28,380 nucleotides of DNA from a virus, in the IMG/VR virus record IMGVR_UViG_3300045743_000147, positions 1-28,380 of that record; one strand, written 5' to 3'. Within the stretch, counting starts at the first letter, position 1; each line of letters begins with the position of its first letter. Shown here piece by piece: positions 7,448-26,086 of this stretch. Under the pieces are notes generated by a model. The model saw nothing but the letters and a program-made list of their open reading frames with translations. It was not told where the DNA came from and ran no database searches. The position numbers were made by a program, and so were the translations under genes.

Positions 7448-7584
7448 AAACGCTTGCTATTTGTTTATTATCTATGCTAGACTATATTACTAGAGACATT
7501 TACTTAACAGATAAAGAATTTTCAGATTATAAAGAAATCAAGGATTATTTAAACTCGATTATAGGATACTACCATTATGCTTAA
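7444..7584 (+). CDS. Small protein, 46 aa
   Basis: ATG 7444 overlaps the upstream stop (ATGA) and its own end overlaps the next gene by 8 bases. Opening MKTLAICLLSMLDYITRDIY, rest acidic and Tyr-rich. It bridges the two reading frames and may chiefly couple translation. Confidence 0.5.
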   Translation: MKTLAICLLSMLDYITRDIYLTDKEFSDYKEIKDYLNSIIGYYHYA

Positions 7585-8437
7585 AATTAAATACCAACCA
7601 AATAATTTTATAAACCAAACAGAAAAGGTAGTCACTTTTCATACTTTCTCTGGCGGCGAAGTACATGTAAATTTGGGATTAAATAATATAATATCTAATT
7701 CTATTGATGTCAATTACCCTATTCAGATTAAAGCAAGATTAGATTCTTCTGATGAATTGATGAAGTTATTGGTATTGACTGATGCATTAAGAAGAAATTT
7801 TGGTAATGTTATTGAATTAGTAATGCCATACATCCCATATGCTAGACAAGATAGAGCCTGTGTTGCTGGAGATTCTTTTTCTCTAAAAGTATTTACTGAT
7901 ATTATCAATTCTCAGAATTATAGTAAGGTTATTGTATCTGATGCCCATTCTATGGTATCATTAGCATTGTTAAATAATGTAGAAGAAATCCCACAAGAAA
8001 CTTTTGCAAATAGAGTTCATTCAAGAATTAAAAAAGATTATGGTACTGTGGATTTTATTGTTTCTCCAGATTTGGGTGCTAGTAAAAAATCTGAAGAATG
8101 GACAAAGATTAATGATATTAATGTTATTCAAGCAACTAAGGTTAGAGATAAATCAGGTTCTATTGTAGCTACCAGATTGTATGATGAAGGTGTTAATTTG
8201 GTTGGGTCTAAGTGCTTAATTGTAGACGATATTTGTTCGGGCGGAAAAACTTTCATCGAATTGGCAAAAGTATTAAAAAGTAAAGGTGTAGAAAAAATAT
8301 TTTTGTATATTACACATGGTATCTTTGATTTTGGTATTGATTGTATTTTGGATGGTGGTATAGATGATATTTACACTACAGATTCGTTTGACCAATCTGG
8401 TAATGCATCAGTAGTTGTTCATGAGTTTTTCTTATGA
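7577..8437 (+). CDS. PRPP synthetase-like enzyme (possible ADPR-PP synthetase)
   Basis: 286 residues, shorter than the usual 310-315. Motifs in order: PYIPYARQDR (about 87-96, matching the bacterial PYFxYARQDR), VSDAHS (about 121-126), TKVRD as the flexible-loop segment, and the PRPP-loop CLIVDDICSGGKTF (about 214-227), where standard enzymes read VDDMIDTxGT. Classic members make PRPP from ribose 5-phosphate and ATP. In phages a PRPP-synthetase relative next to a NAMPT relative can be the NARP1 pair, in which this enzyme (Adps) pyrophosphorylates ADP-ribose. The atypical SGGKT loop fits altered substrate, but sequence alone cannot decide. Confidence 0.85.
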   Translation: MLKIKYQPNNFINQTEKVVTFHTFSGGEVHVNLGLNNIISNSIDVNYPIQIKARLDSSDELMKLLVLTDALRRNFGNVIELVMPYIPYARQDRACVAGDSFSLKVFTDIINSQNYSKVIVSDAHSMVSLALLNNVEEIPQETFANRVHSRIKKDYGTVDFIVSPDLGASKKSEEWTKINDINVIQATKVRDKSGSIVATRLYDEGVNLVGSKCLIVDDICSGGKTFIELAKVLKSKGVEKIFLYITHGIFDFGIDCILDGGIDDIYTTDSFDQSGNASVVVHEFFL

Positions 8438-8907
8438 ATACAATAAAAGGTAATTTATTAGATTTAGCAGAACAAGGTAAATTTGATGTAATCGTGCATG
8501 GTTGTAATGCGTTTAACAATTTTGGTGCTGGTATAGCACTAGAGATAGCAAATAGGTATCCACAAGCTGATTATGCAGATAAATCTACTATACGTGGTGA
8601 TAAAACTAAATTAGGAACCTATACAAAATCTATAGGATTTTCGAAAACTACAAAAGTTAATAGTTTTGTTATCATCAATGCTTATACTCAATATGGTTGT
8701 AATGCATCAAAACATGTAGATTTATTTGAATATGCTTCTTTTCAAAATATTTTAAATAGTTTAGCAGAAGAATACCCAGATAGCAGATTTGGGTTTCCAA
8801 AAATTGGATGTGGTTTAGCTGGTGGAAACGAAAGAAGAATTTTAGATATGATCGATGATTTTTCTAAATTAATTAATGGTTCGGTAACTGTTGTGGAGTT
8901 CGGATAA
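8434..8907 (+). CDS. Macro domain protein (ADP-ribose binding/hydrolysis)
   Basis: 157 residues, one macro domain. Motifs: GNLLDL near residue 6, HGCNAFNNFGAGIALEI at about 22-38 (ligand-binding Asn-Gly-Ala loop), INAYTQYG at about 87-94 and FPKIGCGLAGG at about 120-130 (phosphate-binding loop). The pattern is closest to Poa1p/ADP-ribose 1''-phosphate phosphatase-like proteins. It overlaps the PRPP-synthetase-like gene by ATGA and lies in an NAD+ salvage island, so its ligand may be ADP-ribose or its 1''-phosphate released by host NAD+-consuming defences or by RNA repair. Exact activity unknown. Confidence 0.88.
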   Translation: MNTIKGNLLDLAEQGKFDVIVHGCNAFNNFGAGIALEIANRYPQADYADKSTIRGDKTKLGTYTKSIGFSKTTKVNSFVIINAYTQYGCNASKHVDLFEYASFQNILNSLAEEYPDSRFGFPKIGCGLAGGNERRILDMIDDFSKLINGSVTVVEFG

Positions 8908-9326
8908 TGCAAGATAGATATTTTAATAATCAAGAATGTATAGATAGATTATTCAATGATTATAAACAACATGGTAATTTGTTTGTAGCATTTGATTTCG
9001 ATGATACCGTATTTGATTTTCATAACAAAGGTGATTATTTTTCTAAAATGGAAAGTTTATTAAGAGAACTTTATGATAGAAAATTTACATTGATTTTGTT
9101 TACTGGTAATGAAGGTGACAAACTTGATGCAGCAGTTAACTATTGTGTTGAACGTGGATATAAACCAACATATGTAAACGAGAATCCTATTATGGCTACT
9201 AGAAAGCCATATTATAATATTCTATTTGATGATAGATCTAGTTTATCTGAAGCCTATTGTATTATGAATTCTGTATTAAATAAAATAGATTTAGCAGAAG
9301 AATTTAACAAAAATGTTTTAATTTAG
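8907..9326 (+). CDS. HAD-like phosphatase
   Basis: 139 residues. FVAFDFDDTVFDFH (about 27-40) gives HAD motif I DxDxT/V with the nucleophile and acid Asp. LFTGNEG (about 66-72) matches motif II (S/T). YYNILFDDRSS (about 105-115) supplies the motif IV Asp pair. The cap is minimal. It starts on the stop of the macro gene (TAATG). Similar small HAD proteins are common in phages; substrate unknown, likely a phosphorylated nucleotide or sugar given the neighbours. Confidence 0.8.
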   Translation: MQDRYFNNQECIDRLFNDYKQHGNLFVAFDFDDTVFDFHNKGDYFSKMESLLRELYDRKFTLILFTGNEGDKLDAAVNYCVERGYKPTYVNENPIMATRKPYYNILFDDRSSLSEAYCIMNSVLNKIDLAEEFNKNVLI

Positions 9327-9333
9327 GATTATT

Positions 9334-9582
9334 ATGAATTTATATTTATTGAGTCAATATGAAGAGCGTGGTTATGATACTTTTGATAGTTGTATTGTAG
9401 CTGCATTAAACGAAGATAATGCTAGAATGACACATCCAGATGGTATAGATAATTGGGGTGGTACTTATTGTAGTCGTAGTTGGTGTAGATCTCCAGATGA
9501 TGTTGTTGTAGAATTGATTGGTATTGCAGATCCTTCTATAGATACACCAAGAATCATACTATCAAGTTTTAATGCGGGGTAA
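9334..9582 (+). CDS. Conserved phage hypothetical protein, 82 aa
   Basis: Opening MNLYLLSQYEERGYDTFDSCIVAA with later ARMTHPDG, WCRSPDDVVVELIG and ending SFNAG. I recognise this order as a widespread small phage family (GYDTYDSxVVAA ... HP ... W ... VxxIGxA ... SFNAG) of unknown function. AGGA precedes ATG. Confidence 0.8.
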   Translation: MNLYLLSQYEERGYDTFDSCIVAALNEDNARMTHPDGIDNWGGTYCSRSWCRSPDDVVVELIGIADPSIDTPRIILSSFNAG

Positions 9583-9586
9583 AGAC

Positions 9587-9970
9587 ATGAAAAAAGCCTT
9601 CCTTGGGGGAACTTGTGGAAATTCAACATGGAGAGAATTCCTAATCCCACTATTGAATATTGATTATTTTAATCCTGTAGTATCAGATTGGAATCCTGAA
9701 TGTCAAGAAAGAGAACTTCTGGAAAGAGAAATTTGTGATTATTGTTTATATGTGATAACATCTGATATGACTGGTGTATATTCTATTGCTGAAGCTGTTG
9801 ATGATAGCAATAAAAGACCACTCAAAACAATATTTTGTTATATTGATGATCAACATTTCACCTCACATCAAATAAAATCATTAATTCAAACTGGCCGATT
9901 AATAGAAAGCAATGGCGGTAAATGTTTTAGAAATTTAATTGATGTAGCAGAATATTTAAATAAAGCTTGA
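9587..9970 (+). CDS. Nucleoside 2-deoxyribosyltransferase-like protein
   Basis: 127 residues from ATG 9587 (preceded by GGGGTAAAG; the ATG at 9572 would overlap the upstream gene). Opening KKAFLGGTCGNSTWRE and middle CDYCLYVITSDMTGVYSIAEAVDDSNKRP match the nucleoside-deoxyribosyltransferase-like family 2, with the Gly-rich nucleotide loop, a VITSDMTGVYSIAEA segment and the E that serves as nucleophile in true enzymes. This fold also occurs in ADP-ribose/TIR-like and nucleotide-binding proteins, so activity is uncertain. Its location between the macro domain and NAMPT suggests NAD+/nucleoside metabolism. Its stop is inside the -35 of the next promoter. Confidence 0.75.
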   Translation: MKKAFLGGTCGNSTWREFLIPLLNIDYFNPVVSDWNPECQERELLEREICDYCLYVITSDMTGVYSIAEAVDDSNKRPLKTIFCYIDDQHFTSHQIKSLIQTGRLIESNGGKCFRNLIDVAEYLNKA

Positions 9971-9994
9971 TTTAATCTAAAAACATAGTATAAT
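9967..9994 (+). promoter_or_regulatory. Early promoter of the NAMPT gene
   Basis: TTGATT preceded by AAAGC, 16-base spacer, TATAAT within the palindrome GTATAATATAC. The -35 overlaps the TGA of the previous gene. Confidence 0.8.
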
Positions 9995-10032
9995 ATACAC
10001 ATCAAAACAACAAATTGAAGAAGGTTTACAAT

Positions 10033-11457
10033 ATGAACGCTATAAATATGAAAGATGCTTATAAAATAGGCCACAAAGATCAATATCCAGAAGGAACCAC
10101 TGAGATTTATTCAAATTTTACTGCTAGATCTGGAAACTATTCTAATGTTCCAAATAGCAAAGGTATTGTGTTTGTTGGTCTACAATATTTCATCATGGAT
10201 TATCTTATTGAAGATTGGAACAACACATTTTTCAACAGACCTATTGAAAAGGTTGTAGCAAAATACAAAAGACGAGTATCTAATATTCTTGGATACGATG
10301 TTAATGTTGATCATGTCAGAGCATTACACAGATTAGGATATTTGCCTATTATCATCAAAGCATTACCCGAAGGCTCTTTCGTACCATACGGAGTTCCCGT
10401 TTTAACTATTAAGAATACACATCCAGATTTTTTCTGGGTAACAAATATGTTAGAAACAGTTCTATCATGTGAATTATGGCAACCAATTACATCAGCAACT
10501 ACATATGCTGCTTATAGGAAAATTGGAATTGAATATGCTGAATTGACTGGTGCTGCTATTGATTTTGTACCATTCCAATTCCACGATTTTTCAATGAGAG
10601 GAATGGCTGGTAGACATGCAGCTGCAATTTCTGGTTTTGCTGCATTAGCTGCTGGCTCTTATGGAACTGATTGTGTTCCTGCTATTGATTTAGCAGAAGA
10701 ATATTATGGTGCAAATTCAGATAAAGAATTGGTTGGGGTATCTGTAAATGCAACAGAACATAGCGTCCAATGTTCTGGTAGTAAAGAAAATGAATATGAA
10801 ACTTATATAAGATTGATGACTGATATTTATCCAGAAGGGATTTTATCTATAGTTTCTGATACTTGGGATTTTTGGAATGTTGTATCTAATTTCTTACCTA
10901 GACTTAAAGATACTATTATGTCTAGGAATGGTAAGGTTGTAATCAGACCAGATTCTGGTGATCCAGTAGATATTATTTGCGGTCTTGATATTGAAATTTT
11001 GGATACTGATGATTTTGATTATGCTAAAAGATGGGCTGCTGATTCATTAGAAGATGAAATTAGGTGCAGCACTCCACATGGAGAAGGTGGTGTTGATGAA
11101 CATTCTGGTATATTTAAATGGAAAGATTCTTATTATGAAGCTAAAATTGAAATTTGGTGGAATAGACACGATAAAAAATATTATTATATTGGTGATAGTG
11201 AATTAATTTCGTTTGAGGAAATTGAAATTCTACCAGAACAAAAAGGTTTAGTTGAATCTTTGTGGGATACTTTTGGTGGGACTATTAATACTGCTGGTTT
11301 CAAAGAATTGGATTCTCATATTGGTGCAATTTATGGCGATAGCATCACTTTAGATAGAGCCGAACGCATTTTTAAACGATTGGCTAAGAAAGGGTTTGCT
11401 TCTTCTAATATCGTTCTTGGTGTAGGATCTGCATCTTATCAGGGTGGATTAGGTTAA
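10033..11457 (+). CDS. nadV: Nicotinamide phosphoribosyltransferase, N-terminal fragment
   Basis: 474 residues from ATG 10033 (AAGAAGG upstream; the TTG at 10015 is not needed). NAMPT joins nicotinamide to PRPP to form NMN; the NARP1 relative (Namat) uses ADP-ribose pyrophosphate. Visible motifs: DAYKIGHKDQYPEGTTEIYSN near the start, FHDFSMRGMAGRHAA, NATEHS with the catalytic-His equivalent, SIVSDTWDFWNVV, VVIRPDSGDP with the substrate-binding Arg/Asp, and GVGSASYQ, the phosphate-binding loop. It then reads GGLG and stops. The remaining C-terminal part, beginning TRDTHGFAMKS, is a separate gene at 11708. So this is a truncated but otherwise intact N-terminal portion, holding most active-site residues. 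A phage-specific insertion (about 325-400) is present. Confidence 0.92.
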   Translation: MNAINMKDAYKIGHKDQYPEGTTEIYSNFTARSGNYSNVPNSKGIVFVGLQYFIMDYLIEDWNNTFFNRPIEKVVAKYKRRVSNILGYDVNVDHVRALHRLGYLPIIIKALPEGSFVPYGVPVLTIKNTHPDFFWVTNMLETVLSCELWQPITSATTYAAYRKIGIEYAELTGAAIDFVPFQFHDFSMRGMAGRHAAAISGFAALAAGSYGTDCVPAIDLAEEYYGANSDKELVGVSVNATEHSVQCSGSKENEYETYIRLMTDIYPEGILSIVSDTWDFWNVVSNFLPRLKDTIMSRNGKVVIRPDSGDPVDIICGLDIEILDTDDFDYAKRWAADSLEDEIRCSTPHGEGGVDEHSGIFKWKDSYYEAKIEIWWNRHDKKYYYIGDSELISFEEIEILPEQKGLVESLWDTFGGTINTAGFKELDSHIGAIYGDSITLDRAERIFKRLAKKGFASSNIVLGVGSASYQGGLG

Positions 11458-11704
11458 AATTGGTGATGTATATAAGATTGGAATTAGTACAAATTTAAAA
11501 CGAAGAATTAGTTCTTTATCCAATAAGTCCAAAGAAAAGGTTGAATTGTTATTTAAAAAAGAGTATACTTTACACAATGCATATCTTTTAGAACAGAAGA
11601 TATTAAAGGAAAATGCACAACATAGAATACAAAAAGAATGGTCAACAGAATTATTTGATTTAGATATATCAAATAATATAATTAAATATTTTAATGAGGA
11701 TTAA
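11453..11704 (+). pseudogene. GIY-YIG/T5orf172-type homing endonuclease fragment inside NAMPT
   Basis: The frame opens at 11453 and has no ATG, GTG or TTG near its start; an ATT at 11459 is the only near-cognate. It encodes IGDVYKIGISTNLKRRISSL, then a helical stretch with LEQKILKENAQ and KEWSTELFDLD. This matches the YKIGIsxNLxxR core and the C-terminal E..W region of GIY-YIG-related (T5orf172/MUG113) domains, missing the first strand. It ends four bases before the downstream NAMPT piece. The remnant of an endonuclease that inserted into the gene is the simplest reading. Confidence 0.75.
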
Positions 11705-11707
11705 AAC

Positions 11708-11992
11708 ATGGCTTTAACACGAGATACACACGGGTTTGCGATGAAATCTACTAACGCAGTTATTAATGGAGTTCAAACGCCTATCTTTAAAGATCCTAAA
11801 ACTGATAATGGTACTAAGAAATCTGCTAAGGGTTTATTGATGGTAACACAAGACGTTAATGGCTATCATTTAGAGGATATGGTTGATACTAAGGCAGAAC
11901 AAAGGGGTTGTTTGGAAACTGTATTTAAAGATGGTGTGTTGATTAAAACAACTACATTAGCTGAAATCAGAGAAATCACTTCTAGGATTTAA
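11708..11992 (+). CDS. nadV: Nicotinamide phosphoribosyltransferase, C-terminal fragment
   Basis: 94 residues. Apart from the first three (MAL) it reads as NAMPT C-terminus: TRDTHGFAMKSTNAVINGV, FKDPKTDNGTKKSAKG, and the end KAEQRGCLETVFKDGVLIKTTTLAEIREI. In human NAMPT the Arg of the equivalent LTRD binds substrate phosphate, so the break lies between two parts of the active site. It has its own GAGGA site seven bases before ATG, which suggests it is made as a separate chain that could assemble with the N-terminal fragment. I infer a split but possibly functional enzyme. Confidence 0.88.
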   Translation: MALTRDTHGFAMKSTNAVINGVQTPIFKDPKTDNGTKKSAKGLLMVTQDVNGYHLEDMVDTKAEQRGCLETVFKDGVLIKTTTLAEIREITSRI

Positions 11993-13664: not shown

Positions 13665-13961
13665 ATGAAACTCAGAGAACTGTTTGATAAAGGTAATACA
13701 TCTTTTAAATTAACAATAACACCAACAAGAATTACAATAAAATTACAAAAAGATATTTCTATGGAATTAAAACTTAGAGTTCTTTATTTTTTTGAAAATA
13801 TAGTAAAAGAGGATTCTATGGTTAATTGTGTTCAATCTTATAGAGGCTCTTTTAAATTACCAAAGGCTGATTTTATACCTTGGCAAATACAAATGAAAAC
13901 CAATAGTCCAAATACTAAAAATACTATAACATTTAAGGAATTAGATTATGCAACTAAGTAA
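13665..13961 (+). CDS. Hypothetical protein, 98 aa
   Basis: Alternating beta-rich start (SFKLTITPTRITIKLQKD), then a helix and a Lys/Thr-rich end. It overlaps the RNA ligase start by 14 bases, so it may be translationally coupled to it. Function unknown. Confidence 0.65.
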   Translation: MKLRELFDKGNTSFKLTITPTRITIKLQKDISMELKLRVLYFFENIVKEDSMVNCVQSYRGSFKLPKADFIPWQIQMKTNSPNTKNTITFKELDYATK

Positions 13962-15018
13962 AATGCCATCTATAGGCCAATATAGAAATGTTATTAAACA
14001 AGTATGTGATCAATCACAATTCATTGGATTAGATGATGATGGTGTAGCGATTTTTGATAGAACTCTGAAAGCTCCGGTATTAACTTTTACTGGAACTGTA
14101 AAATTGCATGGAACTTGTGCCAGTATTGGTTTCAATTTAAAACAACCAACAGATTATTGGTGCCAATCTAAAGAGAGTATTATTGAAGTTGGTAAAGATA
14201 ATGCTGGATTTGCGGCTTATGTCCATTTTCATAAAAAAGAATATGAATCTATTTTAATTAATATACGTGCGCTATTATATCACAATCTCGGAAATTATGA
14301 TCAATTTACTGATGCTGTAATTTACGGAGAATGGTGTGGATCAAGTATTCAAAAGGGTGTTGGTATTAATGGTTTACCAAAAATGTTTGTAGTATTTGGT
14401 ATTAAGTTAATATCCAAAAATCAAGATGATTCCGCTAATGTTTGGGTATCTGATCAATTATTAAAAGATATTATTACAAATAATCCAGAGATTAATTTAT
14501 ACAATATCTTTACTTTTGGTGAATGGTCTATTGACATTGATTTTAGTCAACCAGAACAGAGCCAAAACAAAATCATTGAACTTACTCTAGCAGTAGAAAA
14601 TGAATGTCCATGTGCTAAATATTTTGGTATTGAAAATGGTGTAGGAGAAGGTTTAGTATTTAAACACGATTCAGAAAAGTATGGTACTTTACGATATAAA
14701 TCCAAGGGGTTGAAGCACTCAGTTTCTAAGGTTAAAACACTAGCTCCAGTTGATATTGAACGAGTAAACAGCATTGCTGACTTAGTAGATGTTATTTTAA
14801 CAGAAAATAGACTTCAACAAGGTCTTGAACATTTGCGCTTGAATCATTTGGAACTTGATCAAAAAAACACTGGTTCTTTTATTAAGTGGATTGCTAATGA
14901 TGTTATAAAAGAGGAAGTTGATCAGATTTTAGGAAATAATTTAGATATTCCTGAAGTTTTGAAAGTGGTTTCAAAGAAGTCAAAAGAATGGTTTTTTACC
15001 CAAATATTTTCGGTGTAA
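13948..15018 (+). CDS. RNA ligase (ATP-dependent, Rnl2-like)
   Basis: 356 residues, ATG 13948 after AAGGA. Nucleotidyltransferase motifs in order: motif I KLHGTCASI with the adenylated Lys52; AVIYGEWCGSSIQKGV (about 130-145) as motif III; FVVFGIKL as IIIa; GEGLVFKH (about 232-239) as IV; and LRYKSKG (about 248-254) as V. This is the RNA-ligase type of the T4 Rnl2/kinetoplastid editing-ligase group, which seals 3'-OH/5'-phosphate RNA nicks. Phages use such enzymes to reverse host RNA cleavage. The C-terminal 100 residues are helical and lineage-specific. The nucleotidyltransferase at 17751 may be functionally linked, but no kinase-phosphatase is seen in the window. Confidence 0.88.
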   Translation: MQLSKMPSIGQYRNVIKQVCDQSQFIGLDDDGVAIFDRTLKAPVLTFTGTVKLHGTCASIGFNLKQPTDYWCQSKESIIEVGKDNAGFAAYVHFHKKEYESILINIRALLYHNLGNYDQFTDAVIYGEWCGSSIQKGVGINGLPKMFVVFGIKLISKNQDDSANVWVSDQLLKDIITNNPEINLYNIFTFGEWSIDIDFSQPEQSQNKIIELTLAVENECPCAKYFGIENGVGEGLVFKHDSEKYGTLRYKSKGLKHSVSKVKTLAPVDIERVNSIADLVDVILTENRLQQGLEHLRLNHLELDQKNTGSFIKWIANDVIKEEVDQILGNNLDIPEVLKVVSKKSKEWFFTQIFSV

Positions 15019-21475: not shown

Positions 21476-21508
21476 AATTACATCTTAAATTGATTGGACA
21501 AATATATT

Positions 21509-22801
21509 ATGCCTATACTACAAATTTTAAATGATTTAAATTCAACAAAATCATCTAATGAAAAAACTACTATTTTATTATCTCATGCAGATAACCAAAC
21601 TCTAAAGGAAGTATGTCATTTAACATATGATCCTCAAATTAGATTTTTTATTAAAAAGCGTCCAGAATCTACATCAACAGGAAATAAACCTCTATCAGAA
21701 ACTTTAGTTGAATTAGTTGGGGTTATAGCATCGAGAGCTAAGACAGGTAATGCAGCAATAGAATTTGTTCAAGAATTACTAAATTCTTCATCTATTTCTG
21801 ATCAAGAAGTTATTTATAGAATATTAGAACGAGATTTAAAATGTGGAACAGGAACTTCTATTATTAATAAAGTTTGGAAAAAATTAGTCCCAGATTATCC
21901 AATTTTATTATGCAACAAATTTAATGTTAAAACTGAATCTAAAATAAAATATCCTGCTATATTGCAAACAAAAATGGATGGTAGTCGCCTTAACTTAGAA
22001 TTTGATAATGGTAATTGTATTTCTATTACAACAAGAAATGGGAATCTTATTTCAATACCAAAAAGTTTTTCTAATATTACTTTGGTTAATAAATCCAGAT
22101 TTATAGTAGATGGTGAATTGCTATATGCACCAAAAGGTATTATAGCAAATCGAAAATTAGGTAATGGTTTTGTAAATAAAGCTATTAAAGGGACAATCTC
22201 AGAAGAAGAATCCGATAATTTATTATTTGTATGTTGGGATTATATTCCATATGAGGATTTCATTCAAGAATCTAGTGCTATTAGATATGATGTTAGGTTT
22301 GAATCTTTAGAATTTATGTTCGAAGGTGTAGAAAATATCAAAGTAGTTGATAGCAAATATGTAAATAACAAAGAAGAAGTATTAGAGCAATATCAGAAAA
22401 ATCTTGATATTGGTTTAGAGGGTTGTATTCTAAAAAATTCGGATGCTATTTGGTCATCTAAACGATCAAATGATTATTTAAAATTGAAAAATGAATCTAC
22501 CGCAGATCTAATTTGTGTTGGGTTTGAATTTGGTGCAGAAAGAACTCAATTTGAAAATATGTTGGGGAGTTTAATTTGTGAAACATCAGATGGATTACTA
22601 AGAGTTAATGTTGGTTCTGGATTTAAACATTTAAAAGGTGAACGAGATAATCCAGAACAATATGTTGGAAAAATTATAGAAGTGAAATATAATGAAGTAA
22701 TTTCCAGTAAAGGTTCGAATTTAAAATCTTTATTTTTACCAATTTACTCTCAAACTAGAATAGATAAAGATATAGCAAATTCGTTGGATGAATTATTGTA
22801 A
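21509..22801 (+). CDS. ATP-dependent DNA ligase, T4 gp30-like
   Basis: 430 residues from ATG 21509 (TTG 21494 in frame is less likely; MPILQILNDL matches the T4 ligase opening). The N-terminal helical DNA-binding domain covers about 1-130. Motif I is TKMDGSR with the adenylated Lys155 (Lys159 in T4). Then RFIVDGELLY (motif III), LFVCWDYIP (IIIa), GLEGCILKN (IV), DYLKLKNE (V), and an OB-fold end with VGKIIEVKYNE. It seals DNA nicks with ATP during replication and repair. Slightly shorter than T4 gp30 (487). The ribosome site is weak (TTGGACAAA). Confidence 0.92.
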   Translation: MPILQILNDLNSTKSSNEKTTILLSHADNQTLKEVCHLTYDPQIRFFIKKRPESTSTGNKPLSETLVELVGVIASRAKTGNAAIEFVQELLNSSSISDQEVIYRILERDLKCGTGTSIINKVWKKLVPDYPILLCNKFNVKTESKIKYPAILQTKMDGSRLNLEFDNGNCISITTRNGNLISIPKSFSNITLVNKSRFIVDGELLYAPKGIIANRKLGNGFVNKAIKGTISEEESDNLLFVCWDYIPYEDFIQESSAIRYDVRFESLEFMFEGVENIKVVDSKYVNNKEEVLEQYQKNLDIGLEGCILKNSDAIWSSKRSNDYLKLKNESTADLICVGFEFGAERTQFENMLGSLICETSDGLLRVNVGSGFKHLKGERDNPEQYVGKIIEVKYNEVISSKGSNLKSLFLPIYSQTRIDKDIANSLDELL

Positions 22802-24007: not shown

Positions 24008-26086
24008 ATGGCATTAGTACACACAAAAGCAAAAACTTTATTAGCTAAATTATTGGCAACAGAGAATATCAATGTTGAATATAGAAACCAAACTACAGCT
24101 AGTTGTGATTTAGAAACTCGTACATTATATCTTCCTAATCTTAAAGAAGATTTATCGGTTAATGTATTGGATGTATTCTTAGCTCATGAAGTTAGTCATT
24201 TTTTACATTCTCCAACGGATGCTTGGTTAGAAAATATAAAGACTGTTAATAAAGGTATTTTAAACATCGTTGAAGATGCCAGAATTGAGAGAAAAATTAA
24301 AACAAAATATTCAGGATTGAATAAAATATTCGGTAGTGGATATAAAGAATTATATTTTCTTAACTTTTTTGGTGATGAATATTCTGCGGATATTAATGAC
24401 CGAGGATTTTTAGATAGACTTAATATATATTTTAAAGTTGGTGCAGATTTAAACATAAATTTTACCGAAACCGAACAATATTTTCTTGATAAAATAAATT
24501 TAACAAACACCTTTGAAGATGTTATTGAAATATCTAAAGAATTAGAATCTTATGTTAAAGAATTAAATGAAAGTAAATATTCAGTTAATTTGGATGGAGA
24601 TTTTGATAATATAGACCTCGATTTAGATGACATAGAAGATTTGGATGACATAGAAGATTTAGATGGTATGTATGCTAATCATTTAGGTGATCCTAATGAT
24701 GGTGAAATTAATGATATTGATGAATTAATAATAGAATCTCAAATAGTATTTAATCGTAAATTTGAAACAATATTATCTGATAGTGGTAAAGAAAAAAAAT
24801 ATATAAATGTAAACGTCCCAGATTCTAAAGAATTTATTATTAAACCTAAACAAATTATTGAAGAAATATATGCTAATTATAATAATCCCCCATTACAAAC
24901 AAATCTGATCCAATATAATAAATTTTTAAAAGAAAATCTTAATGTTATTCAATATTTAGTTAATGAATTTAATTTAAAACAAAATGCTGACAGGTATCAG
25001 AAAGTAAAAGTATCTAAAACTGGAATATTAAATGAAAAACGATTATTTGCATACAAAATAACAGATGATATTTTTAGAACTACTACTAATATACAAAATG
25101 GAAAATCTCATGGGATTGTATTATTTTTAGATTGGTCTCAGTCTATGAGATATAATCTATCTGATACAATTAAACAACTATTAAATGTACTATTATTCTG
25201 TAGAAAGTTAAATATTCCATATGAGGTTTATGGCTTTACATCAAGATATCAATATGGAAATGCTAGACCAGAATTTAACTATCCAGAAGGTATTAATTTT
25301 TCAAAATATGAATGTACTTTGTTAAATTTTTTTAGTTCTTCTATGAGCAATCAAGAATTTAAACAAATGGCAAATATATTATTATGTTTTGATGGTTCTC
25401 AACTTAACTCTAATACTATTCCTACTATTGATCAAAGAACCTATATACCAGTGAAATTTAGTTTAGGCGACACTCCGCTAAATGATGCTATTATTTTAGC
25501 AATGGATATTATTCCAAAATTTAAATCACACAATAAAATACAGTTTGCACATACTATATTTTTAACTGATGGGGAATCTAATTATTCTAAATATTCTGCA
25601 GTTAGGAAGGGTAATAAATTTCAACAATCATTACATAATTATGCGTTTGGAGCAAAAACTCTTGTAGTATTGAGAAATTTAGAGACTAAAATTACATCAT
25701 TGGCAGATATATATATAGATCCTATAGCAATAACAAGAGGATTATTTAAAATGTTACGGGATCAAATATCAGATAATGTAATTGGTTTTCGTATAGTAAC
25801 AGATAAAGAAATAAAAAAAGATGCTATAAAATGTTATTTTAATTCCCATGATGAATATGAATCTGGTAAACTATATCTTAAAAAACATAAGTATGTTAGT
25901 TCCACCAATATAATGTTTGATAGGAGTTTTATATTAAGAAATAGTGCTTTAGAACTAAAAATTGAAGATTTTGAAGTAACTGAAAAATCTTCTGTAAAAG
26001 CAATTGCAAAACAGTTTACCAAAATAGCAATAAATAAGAAAATTAATAGAGTTTTTCTTAAAGAATTTATTTCATTAATAGCGTAG
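24008..26086 (+). CDS. Zincin-VWA protein, CobT/MoxR-partner-like
   Basis: 692 residues, the largest gene here. Residues 1-110 carry AHEVSHFLHSP with HExxH (His60, Glu61, His64), a zinc-metallopeptidase signature. An acidic linker at about 195-225 contains an 18-base direct repeat encoding DLDDIE twice. The C-terminal half is a von Willebrand A domain: LFLDWSQSM with MIDAS residues Asp375, Ser377, Ser379, then LGDTPLNDA (MIDAS Thr), and TIFLTDGES (Asp521). VWA proteins of the CobT type pair with CobS/MoxR-type AAA+ ATPases, and one is encoded at 26959. The pair probably remodels a target protein, here possibly combined with proteolysis. CobT in cobalt chelation lacks an HExxH, so chelatase activity is unlikely. 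Confidence 0.85.
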   Translation: MALVHTKAKTLLAKLLATENINVEYRNQTTASCDLETRTLYLPNLKEDLSVNVLDVFLAHEVSHFLHSPTDAWLENIKTVNKGILNIVEDARIERKIKTKYSGLNKIFGSGYKELYFLNFFGDEYSADINDRGFLDRLNIYFKVGADLNINFTETEQYFLDKINLTNTFEDVIEISKELESYVKELNESKYSVNLDGDFDNIDLDLDDIEDLDDIEDLDGMYANHLGDPNDGEINDIDELIIESQIVFNRKFETILSDSGKEKKYINVNVPDSKEFIIKPKQIIEEIYANYNNPPLQTNLIQYNKFLKENLNVIQYLVNEFNLKQNADRYQKVKVSKTGILNEKRLFAYKITDDIFRTTTNIQNGKSHGIVLFLDWSQSMRYNLSDTIKQLLNVLLFCRKLNIPYEVYGFTSRYQYGNARPEFNYPEGINFSKYECTLLNFFSSSMSNQEFKQMANILLCFDGSQLNSNTIPTIDQRTYIPVKFSLGDTPLNDAIILAMDIIPKFKSHNKIQFAHTIFLTDGESNYSKYSAVRKGNKFQQSLHNYAFGAKTLVVLRNLETKITSLADIYIDPIAITRGLFKMLRDQISDNVIGFRIVTDKEIKKDAIKCYFNSHDEYESGKLYLKKHKYVSSTNIMFDRSFILRNSALELKIEDFEVTEKSSVKAIAKQFTKIAINKKINRVFLKEFISLIA
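24620..24655 (+). repeat. 18-bp direct repeat in the acidic linker
   Basis: Two 18-base units of GATTTRGATGACATAGAA, in frame, encoding DLDDIE, followed by a partial third. Confidence 0.85.

Follow-up and report, generated by a model that had tools for sequence, protein, structure and literature searches.

The virus record IMGVR_UViG_3300045743_000147, a stretch of 28,380 bases that we refer to as the window, carries between positions 7577 and 11992 what is probably, judging from its gene families, an NAD+ reconstitution island of the NARP1 type with accessory enzymes, in which the remains of a homing-type nuclease gene divide the gene for one of the two core enzymes. The two core enzymes are Adps, which resembles phosphoribosyl pyrophosphate (PRPP) synthetases (Prs), and Namat, which belongs to the NAMPT family. 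A preliminary description of this DNA had named Prs-like, macro-domain, HAD and deoxyribosyltransferase-like genes, all of which we confirm, and a NAMPT gene running to 11992, for which the family stands but the single gene does not, as it consists of two open reading frames (ORFs; 10015-11457 and 11708-11992) in different frames. That description overlooked the interruption, which lies within the specificity-determining motif of Namat, and a working NARP1 therefore cannot be assumed for the window.

All genes of the island run on the + strand and mostly overlap or abut, an operon-like arrangement in the order Prs-like, macro, HAD, a gene for 82 amino acids (aa), NDT-fold (nucleoside deoxyribosyltransferase) and NAMPT-like (Table 1). 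The Prs, HAD, NDT and NAMPT genes all have strong family matches, and the macro assignment is firm in PHROGs only (against the Pfam family PF01661 it reaches E=0.009 and 16.3 bits, under the cut-off of 22); apart from that Pfam match, the scores greatly exceed what chance would give. The 82-aa gene sits between the HAD and NDT genes, making six genes of what had been described as a five-gene island.

The Prs/NAMPT pair very probably belongs to the NARP1 lineage (Adps plus Namat), as had been proposed from its two-gene composition. Compared with solved structures, the N-terminal part of the NAMPT-like protein scores 415 bits with 9W5W/9W5X, the Namat structures of SpbetaL1 (PMC12774641), 338 bits with 9KE8, and about 170 bits with human-type NAMPT chains; it matches phrog_448 (positions 11-396) at 1.8e-163 and PRK09198 at 5.3e-128. 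In a FastTree phylogeny of 42 leaves, the protein groups with that of L092 (support 0.964; L numbers denote loci examined here), then with L005 and L100 (0.927), inside a Namat clade of 38 leaves (0.909) that also holds Bacillus phage PJN02, a Felixounavirus protein, and ICP1, and that excludes the proteins of Vibrio phage Va3 (Schizotequatrovirus), Sinorhizobium, and Cupriavidus. NadV of H. ducreyi joins this clade with support 0.75, and clade membership alone is therefore no proof that ADP-ribose pyrophosphate (ADPR-PP) is used. The window Namat keeps the catalytic D13, Y15, F189, S190, R192, the catalytic His, R306, D308, G360, and D361 (numbering transferred by motif through PJN02, a stand-in for SpbetaL1).

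The Adps-type gene is intact, and its product is 51% identical to that of L092 and 43% identical, over 213 aa, to ICP1 NrsA. Its loop DDICSGGKT is present as first described but is not unusual: in a survey of 138 Prs genes from the examined loci (near-duplicates included, 22 missed by the search expression), the fourth residue is Cys in 96 of the 116 readable loops, and none reads DDMIDT. Prs matches of less than 25 bits were dropped from linkage and loop counts. Both the Prs (family positions 7-222) and the NAMPT pieces are matched by phrog_12872, which suggests natural Adps-Namat fusions in some phages. Extra C-terminal Prs fragments lie upstream of Namat at L092:6728-6937 and L113:5952-6149.

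Table 1. Features of the island and of the split Namat gene in the window.
Feature	Coordinates	Strand	Evidence
Adps-type (Prs-like) gene, 286 aa, loop DDICSGGKT	7577..8437	+	phrog_619 2.2e-78, PF13793 4.7e-11
Macro-domain gene, 157 aa, T4-group type	8434..8907	+	phrog_335 2e-40
HAD phosphatase-like gene, 139 aa	8907..9326	+	phrog_1238 6.6e-18, BT0820 family 3.2e-7
82-aa protein, function unassigned	9334..9582	+	phrog_5444 5e-18
NDT-fold (Nuc_deoxyri_tr2) gene, 127 aa	9587..9970	+	PF15891 3.7e-7
N-terminal Namat part, ends ...GVGSASYQ plus four foreign codons (GGLG) plus stop	10033..11457	+	phrog_448, PRK09198, 9W5W/9W5X
265-base insert inside the SCH/TRD clamp motif	11443..11707	+	sequence
5'-truncated T5orf172/MUG113 (GIY-YIG-like) nuclease remnant	11456..11704	+	PF13455 2.3e-9, PF10544 1.4e-8
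Candidate ribosome-binding site GAGGA, 7 nt before ATG 11708	11696..11700	+	sequence
C-terminal Namat part, separate ORF, 94 aa (MALTRDTHGFAMKST...)	11708..11992	+	phrog_448 positions 400-493, 6.9e-26

The insert that splits Namat has a GC content of 24%, against 34-35% on either side. In the third frame it holds 82 open codons, a length that none of 2000 mononucleotide-shuffled versions retained, with a stop at 11450 in that frame and no ATG, GTG, or TTG before the domain, and it matches the phrog_681 endonuclease at 1e-12 (positions 452-536 of 576); we take this frame to be a putative GIY-YIG-type nuclease that lacks its N-terminus. Close relatives of the nuclease piece were absent from the viral contigs, and five weak ones were found in GenBank phages. 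Upstream, the N-terminal Namat part has TTG 10015 as an alternative start; downstream, the C-terminal part matches PRK09198 positions 374-461 at 2.4e-22 and Namat in the PDB at 2.6e-19, and the GAGGA before it resembles the AGGA(TT) sites preceding several other window genes. Both halves are open, with no stops or frameshifts and no divergence beyond that of intact relatives: the C-terminal part is 67.7% identical to L092, and the intact proteins of L005, L100, and L092 are 58-62% identical to each other. In the loci L057, L251, and L279, single-base frameshifts may reflect sequencing errors and were left out of account.

The interrupted motif is the Namat signature, a "selectivity clamp" of the form GSX-phi-X-phi-X-phi-TRD whose third and seventh positions are aromatics that bind adenine and whose T, R, and D act on the ligand of the neighbouring protomer (PMC12774641). 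In the window it reads GSASYQ, insert, (M)ALTRD, cut after the sixth residue, between Q and TRD. The closest relatives are uninterrupted (GSYTYQMVTRD in L005, GSYTYQLVTRD in L100, GSFSFQYVTRD in L092), and the motif of the relatives, GS followed by at least six residues and TRD, is unbroken. No other split at the clamp site was found in 62 NAMPT loci, 80 further loci, and 55 Namat ORFs of more than 200 aa from loci retrieved with a HAD profile, three sets that overlap in contigs. The clamp interruption appears to be new: the literature searched, largely open-access, holds no report of a nuclease-split NAMPT or of NDT genes with NARP1 or Thoeris, and the window's features do not show among the papers listed, likewise largely open-access, on extra genes in phage NAD+ operons.

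Three other explanations of the insert were considered and set aside. A group I intron is doubtful, as there is no Rfam match at E<=1 in 11300-11900 and the insert is nearly all nuclease frame; an intein is contradicted by the N-terminal frame, which reaches a stop four codons in; and a programmed +1 shift from Namat into the nuclease frame is possible by frames, but nothing supports it.

Namat genes are also disturbed elsewhere. In L020 (6170-9446), a Namat fragment of ~160 residues is followed by a homing-endonuclease-like ORF (phrog_655, 3.3e-19) and then by an intact, divergent Namat copy, and in L059 (8753-9621), Namat is interrupted just past the catalytic His region by ~870 bases with stops, whose start, CLGTAVMIESI, looks intein-like. 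Taken with the Prs fragments of L092 and L113, the case of L020 suggests that NARP1 genes are invaded repeatedly, although a nuclease gene is in place only in L020 and the window.

The three accessory genes with family assignments encode predicted phosphatase and glycosidase types. The macro protein matches a macrodomain (5e3b, 4e-8) and, over its N-terminal 43 aa, an ADP-ribose 1''-phosphate phosphatase (6lfu, 6e-5), a weak resemblance to Poa1p-like macro domains. In the HAD protein, D30, D32, T34, K100, and D109 are invariant and T66 nearly so (alignment of 13 sequences), and the phosphatase motifs (DxDxT, Thr, Lys, Asp) are intact; its model (pLDDT 90.8) has a fold that matches BT_0820 (Z 11.8) and, more weakly, the phosphatase of T4 polynucleotide kinase/phosphatase (Z 7.9). 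The NDT ORF was listed from 9572, with ATG 9587 the likelier start. Its residue E69 in YSIAEAVDDSNK, the putative catalytic Glu of the NDT-fold protein, is invariant in a 16-row alignment and located in a long helix (H64-76). The AlphaFold2 model (pLDDT 93) reaches Z 13.1 both to YtoQ and to a putative NDT and also matches deoxyribosyltransferases, DNPH1, and, lower, SPARTA TIR domains. PADLOC gave no match for the window NDT, macro, or HAD proteins.

The macro, HAD, and NDT genes recur beside Prs-Namat in other phages and in bacteria, in agreement with the earlier suggestion that macro and NDT are additions to NARP1. We grouped 151 NAMPT-family loci, including the window and seven GenBank loci, into 124 clusters at 90% identity, each with one representative. 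Within the examined DNA, a same-strand Prs gene is present in 111 of the 124 clusters, a macro gene in 28 (13 of them between Prs and NAMPT), and a HAD gene in 20 (15 between the two); three of these 20 (L099, L101, L109) look like unrelated distant HADs. NDT is found in 2 cluster representatives and also in L011-L013, which belong to the cluster of L008; the window, L053, and L011-L013 have it between Prs and NAMPT. Among 50,697 GenBank phage records, NDT occurs in 21 and HAD in 25, so that these two, unlike macro, are rare outside such loci. Searching the viral contigs with one HAD sequence gave no match; the HAD profile did find relatives, 80 of 121 of which were kept. Of these 80 loci, 51 hold both Prs and NAMPT within 5 kb and 59 hold at least one, and the scan added L283 (Prs-HAD-NDT-NAMPT) and L313 and L325 (both Prs-macro-HAD-NAMPT). 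The co-occurrence of macro and NDT genes expected in relatives is thus seen, with these three loci as sub-orders, but none of the other loci examined has the window's complete gene order. Besides the window, NDT stands beside Prs-Namat in three phage groups (L053; L011-L013; L283) and four bacterial loci.

The bacterial cases come from an NDT profile scan that, with one genome per species, yielded 47 loci. Prs and Namat lie within 5 kb of NDT, in two gene orders, in L200, L209, L211, and L215, all from Bacteroidota; in L216, NDT stands with Prs before the contig ends. A Prs-profile match in L222 (7e-5) is weak and was taken as unrelated. Between its Adps and Namat genes, L200 encodes a 260-aa protein in which the HAD profile covers residues 2-132 and the NDT profile 132-259, a HAD-NDT fusion. 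The NDT of L211 starts with a leader nearly identical to that of the HAD of this fusion and is likely, from this sequence likeness, a fusion that has lost its HAD part. In 248 genomes of the order of L211, NDT occurs in 3 (two weak, one the seed itself) and the NAMPT family in 24 (13 strong); as both are sparse, a chance neighbourhood is very unlikely, even though the loci from Saprospiraceae are relatives of one another. The short flanks of eight Namat loci from the Saprospiraceae order hold no HAD, NDT, or macro gene. Judged from gene content, the accessory set is recurrent and, together with the HAD-NDT fusion, is more than a chance neighbourhood.

Several bacterial NDT genes have defence genes as neighbours. 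In L211 (4047-10141), Piwi and Aga_SIR2 genes of the SPARSA type, an NAD+-depleting defence, stand directly downstream of the NAD+-rebuilding Prs-NDT-Namat run. NDT lies directly upstream of a patatin gene in L185, L188, L193, L198, and L206 (Bacteroidota and related metagenome-assembled genomes), the patatin assignment having been checked by Pfam for L193 only (CBASS-type phospholipase). Among the loci whose surroundings were checked, L193 also has convergent nSTAND1 ATPase and SIR2-TIR genes, and L185 a SIR2-TIR gene; from its gene content, the NDT-patatin arrangement looks like an undescribed defence locus. In a Crocinitomix genome, L217:4998-6335 encodes an NDT-TIR domain fusion, with another NDT-like ORF downstream.

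Glycosidase and phosphatase folds that are adjacent or fused and lie between Adps and Namat suggest a role in supplying or cleaning ADP-ribose, and we tentatively propose, by analogy, that HAD, NDT, or macro feeds ADP-ribose to Adps. Host NADases (TIR, SIR2) would release nicotinamide and ADP-ribose or ADP-ribose derivatives; macro and HAD as phosphatase types and NDT as a glycosidase fold could convert ADP-ribose 1''-phosphate, cyclic ADP-ribose, and similar products to ADP-ribose; Adps would turn ADP-ribose into ADPR-PP; and Namat would join this with nicotinamide to give NAD+. There is an experimental precedent in the NARP1 operon of DyoEdafos, where RyDEP converts 2'cADPR and 3'cADPR to ADP-ribose, made into NAD+ by Adps and Namat (PMC13232231). 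Both operons hold an extra putative glycosidase gene; that of RyDEP has a ryanodine-receptor-repeat fold, whereas that of the window has a predicted NDT fold. Compared with NARP1 of SpbetaL1 and ICP1 (NrsAB), the window shares Adps- and Namat-lineage genes in one run on one strand, with the Namat catalytic residues kept, and differs by the macro, HAD, 82-aa, and NDT genes between the pair and by the split in the clamp.

It is possible, if somewhat doubtful, that the split Namat is still active in some form. Both chains are probably still produced, and if they assemble, adenine recognition would be weakened and the making of nicotinamide mononucleotide (NMN) from PRPP may outlast direct NAD+ synthesis. 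A partly working PRPP-type enzyme might be expected on the basis of the SpbetaL1 clamp double mutant R40A/F392G, which lost ADPR-PP-driven NAD+ synthesis and kept NMN synthesis (PMC12774641). A comparable case is nrdA of phage Aeh1, which a homing-type nuclease gene, mobE, divides into two ORFs at a site critical for function and whose split product, NrdA, has proved functional (PMC2988022); there the nuclease, MobE, belongs to the HNH class, whereas the window has a truncated GIY-YIG-like piece and a putative two-chain enzyme.

Several findings weigh against an island of the NARP1 type with functionally linked accessory enzymes and a nuclease-split Namat. Both clamp aromatics are lost, with Ala at F392 (position 3) and at 396 (position 7, across the cut), and the SCL Arg40 position is Asn in the alignment of the window Namat; ADPR-PP selectivity may therefore be lost. 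NDT mostly occurs without NARP1: in the examined DNA, 42 of the 47 bacterial and 16 of the 17 NDT-led viral loci have no convincing Prs and no convincing Namat. Macro domains are common, being present in 2659 of the 50,697 GenBank phage records. Nearly all sequences behind the HAD profile came from NARP1-linked loci, and the loci it retrieved were not dereplicated, so the fraction of 51 in 80 HAD-led loci is an upper guess. Lastly, NARP1 is known to be lost in nature: 60 of 75 ICP1 isolates have a nonsense codon in nrsB, and the intact system costs fitness when the host has no NADase (PMC11559045).

The last point bears on the explanation that comes closest to ours, and which has nearly an even chance of being right, namely that the Namat gene is dead: a nuclease landed in it, the NADase is no longer met, and the operon is being lost, while HAD, NDT, and macro may serve otherwise. 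The insert destroys the clamp motif with both its aromatics, and loss is common elsewhere, as in the ICP1 isolates and in Staphylococcus phage HN01, where a 93-aa NadV stub follows Prs. Yet Adps is intact, the candidate ribosome site of the second Namat half resembles those before other window genes, and both halves are free of stops and frameshifts and have diverged no faster than intact relatives.

Less compatible with the data, and in our view quite unlikely, is a role of macro and HAD in RNA repair, clearing the ADP-ribose 1''-phosphate that arises from NAD+-dependent RNA 2'-phosphate removal. The window does encode an RNA ligase (13948-15018, phrog_548 7e-51), the HAD fold also matches T4 polynucleotide kinase/phosphatase as noted above, and a link between macro domains and KptA is on record (PMC9503650), but HAD stands beside Prs and Namat in 51 of the 80 HAD-led loci, and the window families scanned, a subset of its ORFs, included no KptA-like gene.

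Ordinary salvage, in which the Prs/NAMPT pair makes PRPP and NMN and NDT serves nucleotide salvage, is improbable. It would fit the damaged clamp, the adjoining of H. ducreyi NadV to the Namat clade, and the fact that the window Prs passes the NCBIfam model ribP_PPkin (131.5 bits against a cut-off of 113), which ICP1 NrsA fails (98 bits). Against it, loop and clade are those of NARP1 relatives, among them ICP1 NrsAB, for which a rise of NAD+ during infection was shown (PMC11559045), and the 28-kb window yielded no sign of an NMN adenylyltransferase gene, although no dedicated model search for one was made. An assembly error in the metagenomic contig is very improbable as the source of the insert: the window is a single contig, and two pattern scans gave no second copy of the junction among the records available to them, returning eight loci of which two were Namat and both continuous, but the junction falls at a conserved functional motif, as expected of homing nucleases, and the 82-codon frame and ribosome site are coherent.

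Some further observations concern other parts of the window and the loci compared. The window encodes an ATP-dependent DNA ligase at 21494-22801 and a peptidase-labelled protein at 24008-26086, for which the best-ranked GenBank phage relatives are cyanophages (31% identity). At 420-660, an ORF that enters from the left end of the window has a repetitive Ala/Asp-rich tail (AAYSADDAADDD...). In Pseudomonas phage PPSC2 (L083), the labels are apparently shifted by one gene, the NAMPT ORF being labelled "macro domain protein" and the macro-family ORF coming next.

On the reading we prefer, of a NARP1-type island with accessory enzymes and a nuclease-split Namat, a broader view can be sketched that we hold to be rather unlikely: NARP1 would be the core of a larger pathway with a HAD-NDT front end, in places fused, that converts host immune products (cyclic ADP-ribose, ADP-ribose 1''-phosphate) to ADP-ribose for NAD+ synthesis, common to phages and to bacteria with NAD+-depleting defences, and Namat would now be a two-chain enzyme in the window. 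If HAD and NDT do feed NARP1, they would represent a second phage route, with a fold unrelated to that of RyDEP, by which ADP-ribose-based immune signals are disarmed and reused as NAD+, and this would also explain why TIR, SIR2, and patatin genes accompany the bacterial NDT relatives. As a natural experiment on the specificity clamp, the split Namat may have kept PRPP-type activity, a reduced capacity for NAD+ synthesis, or no activity at all.

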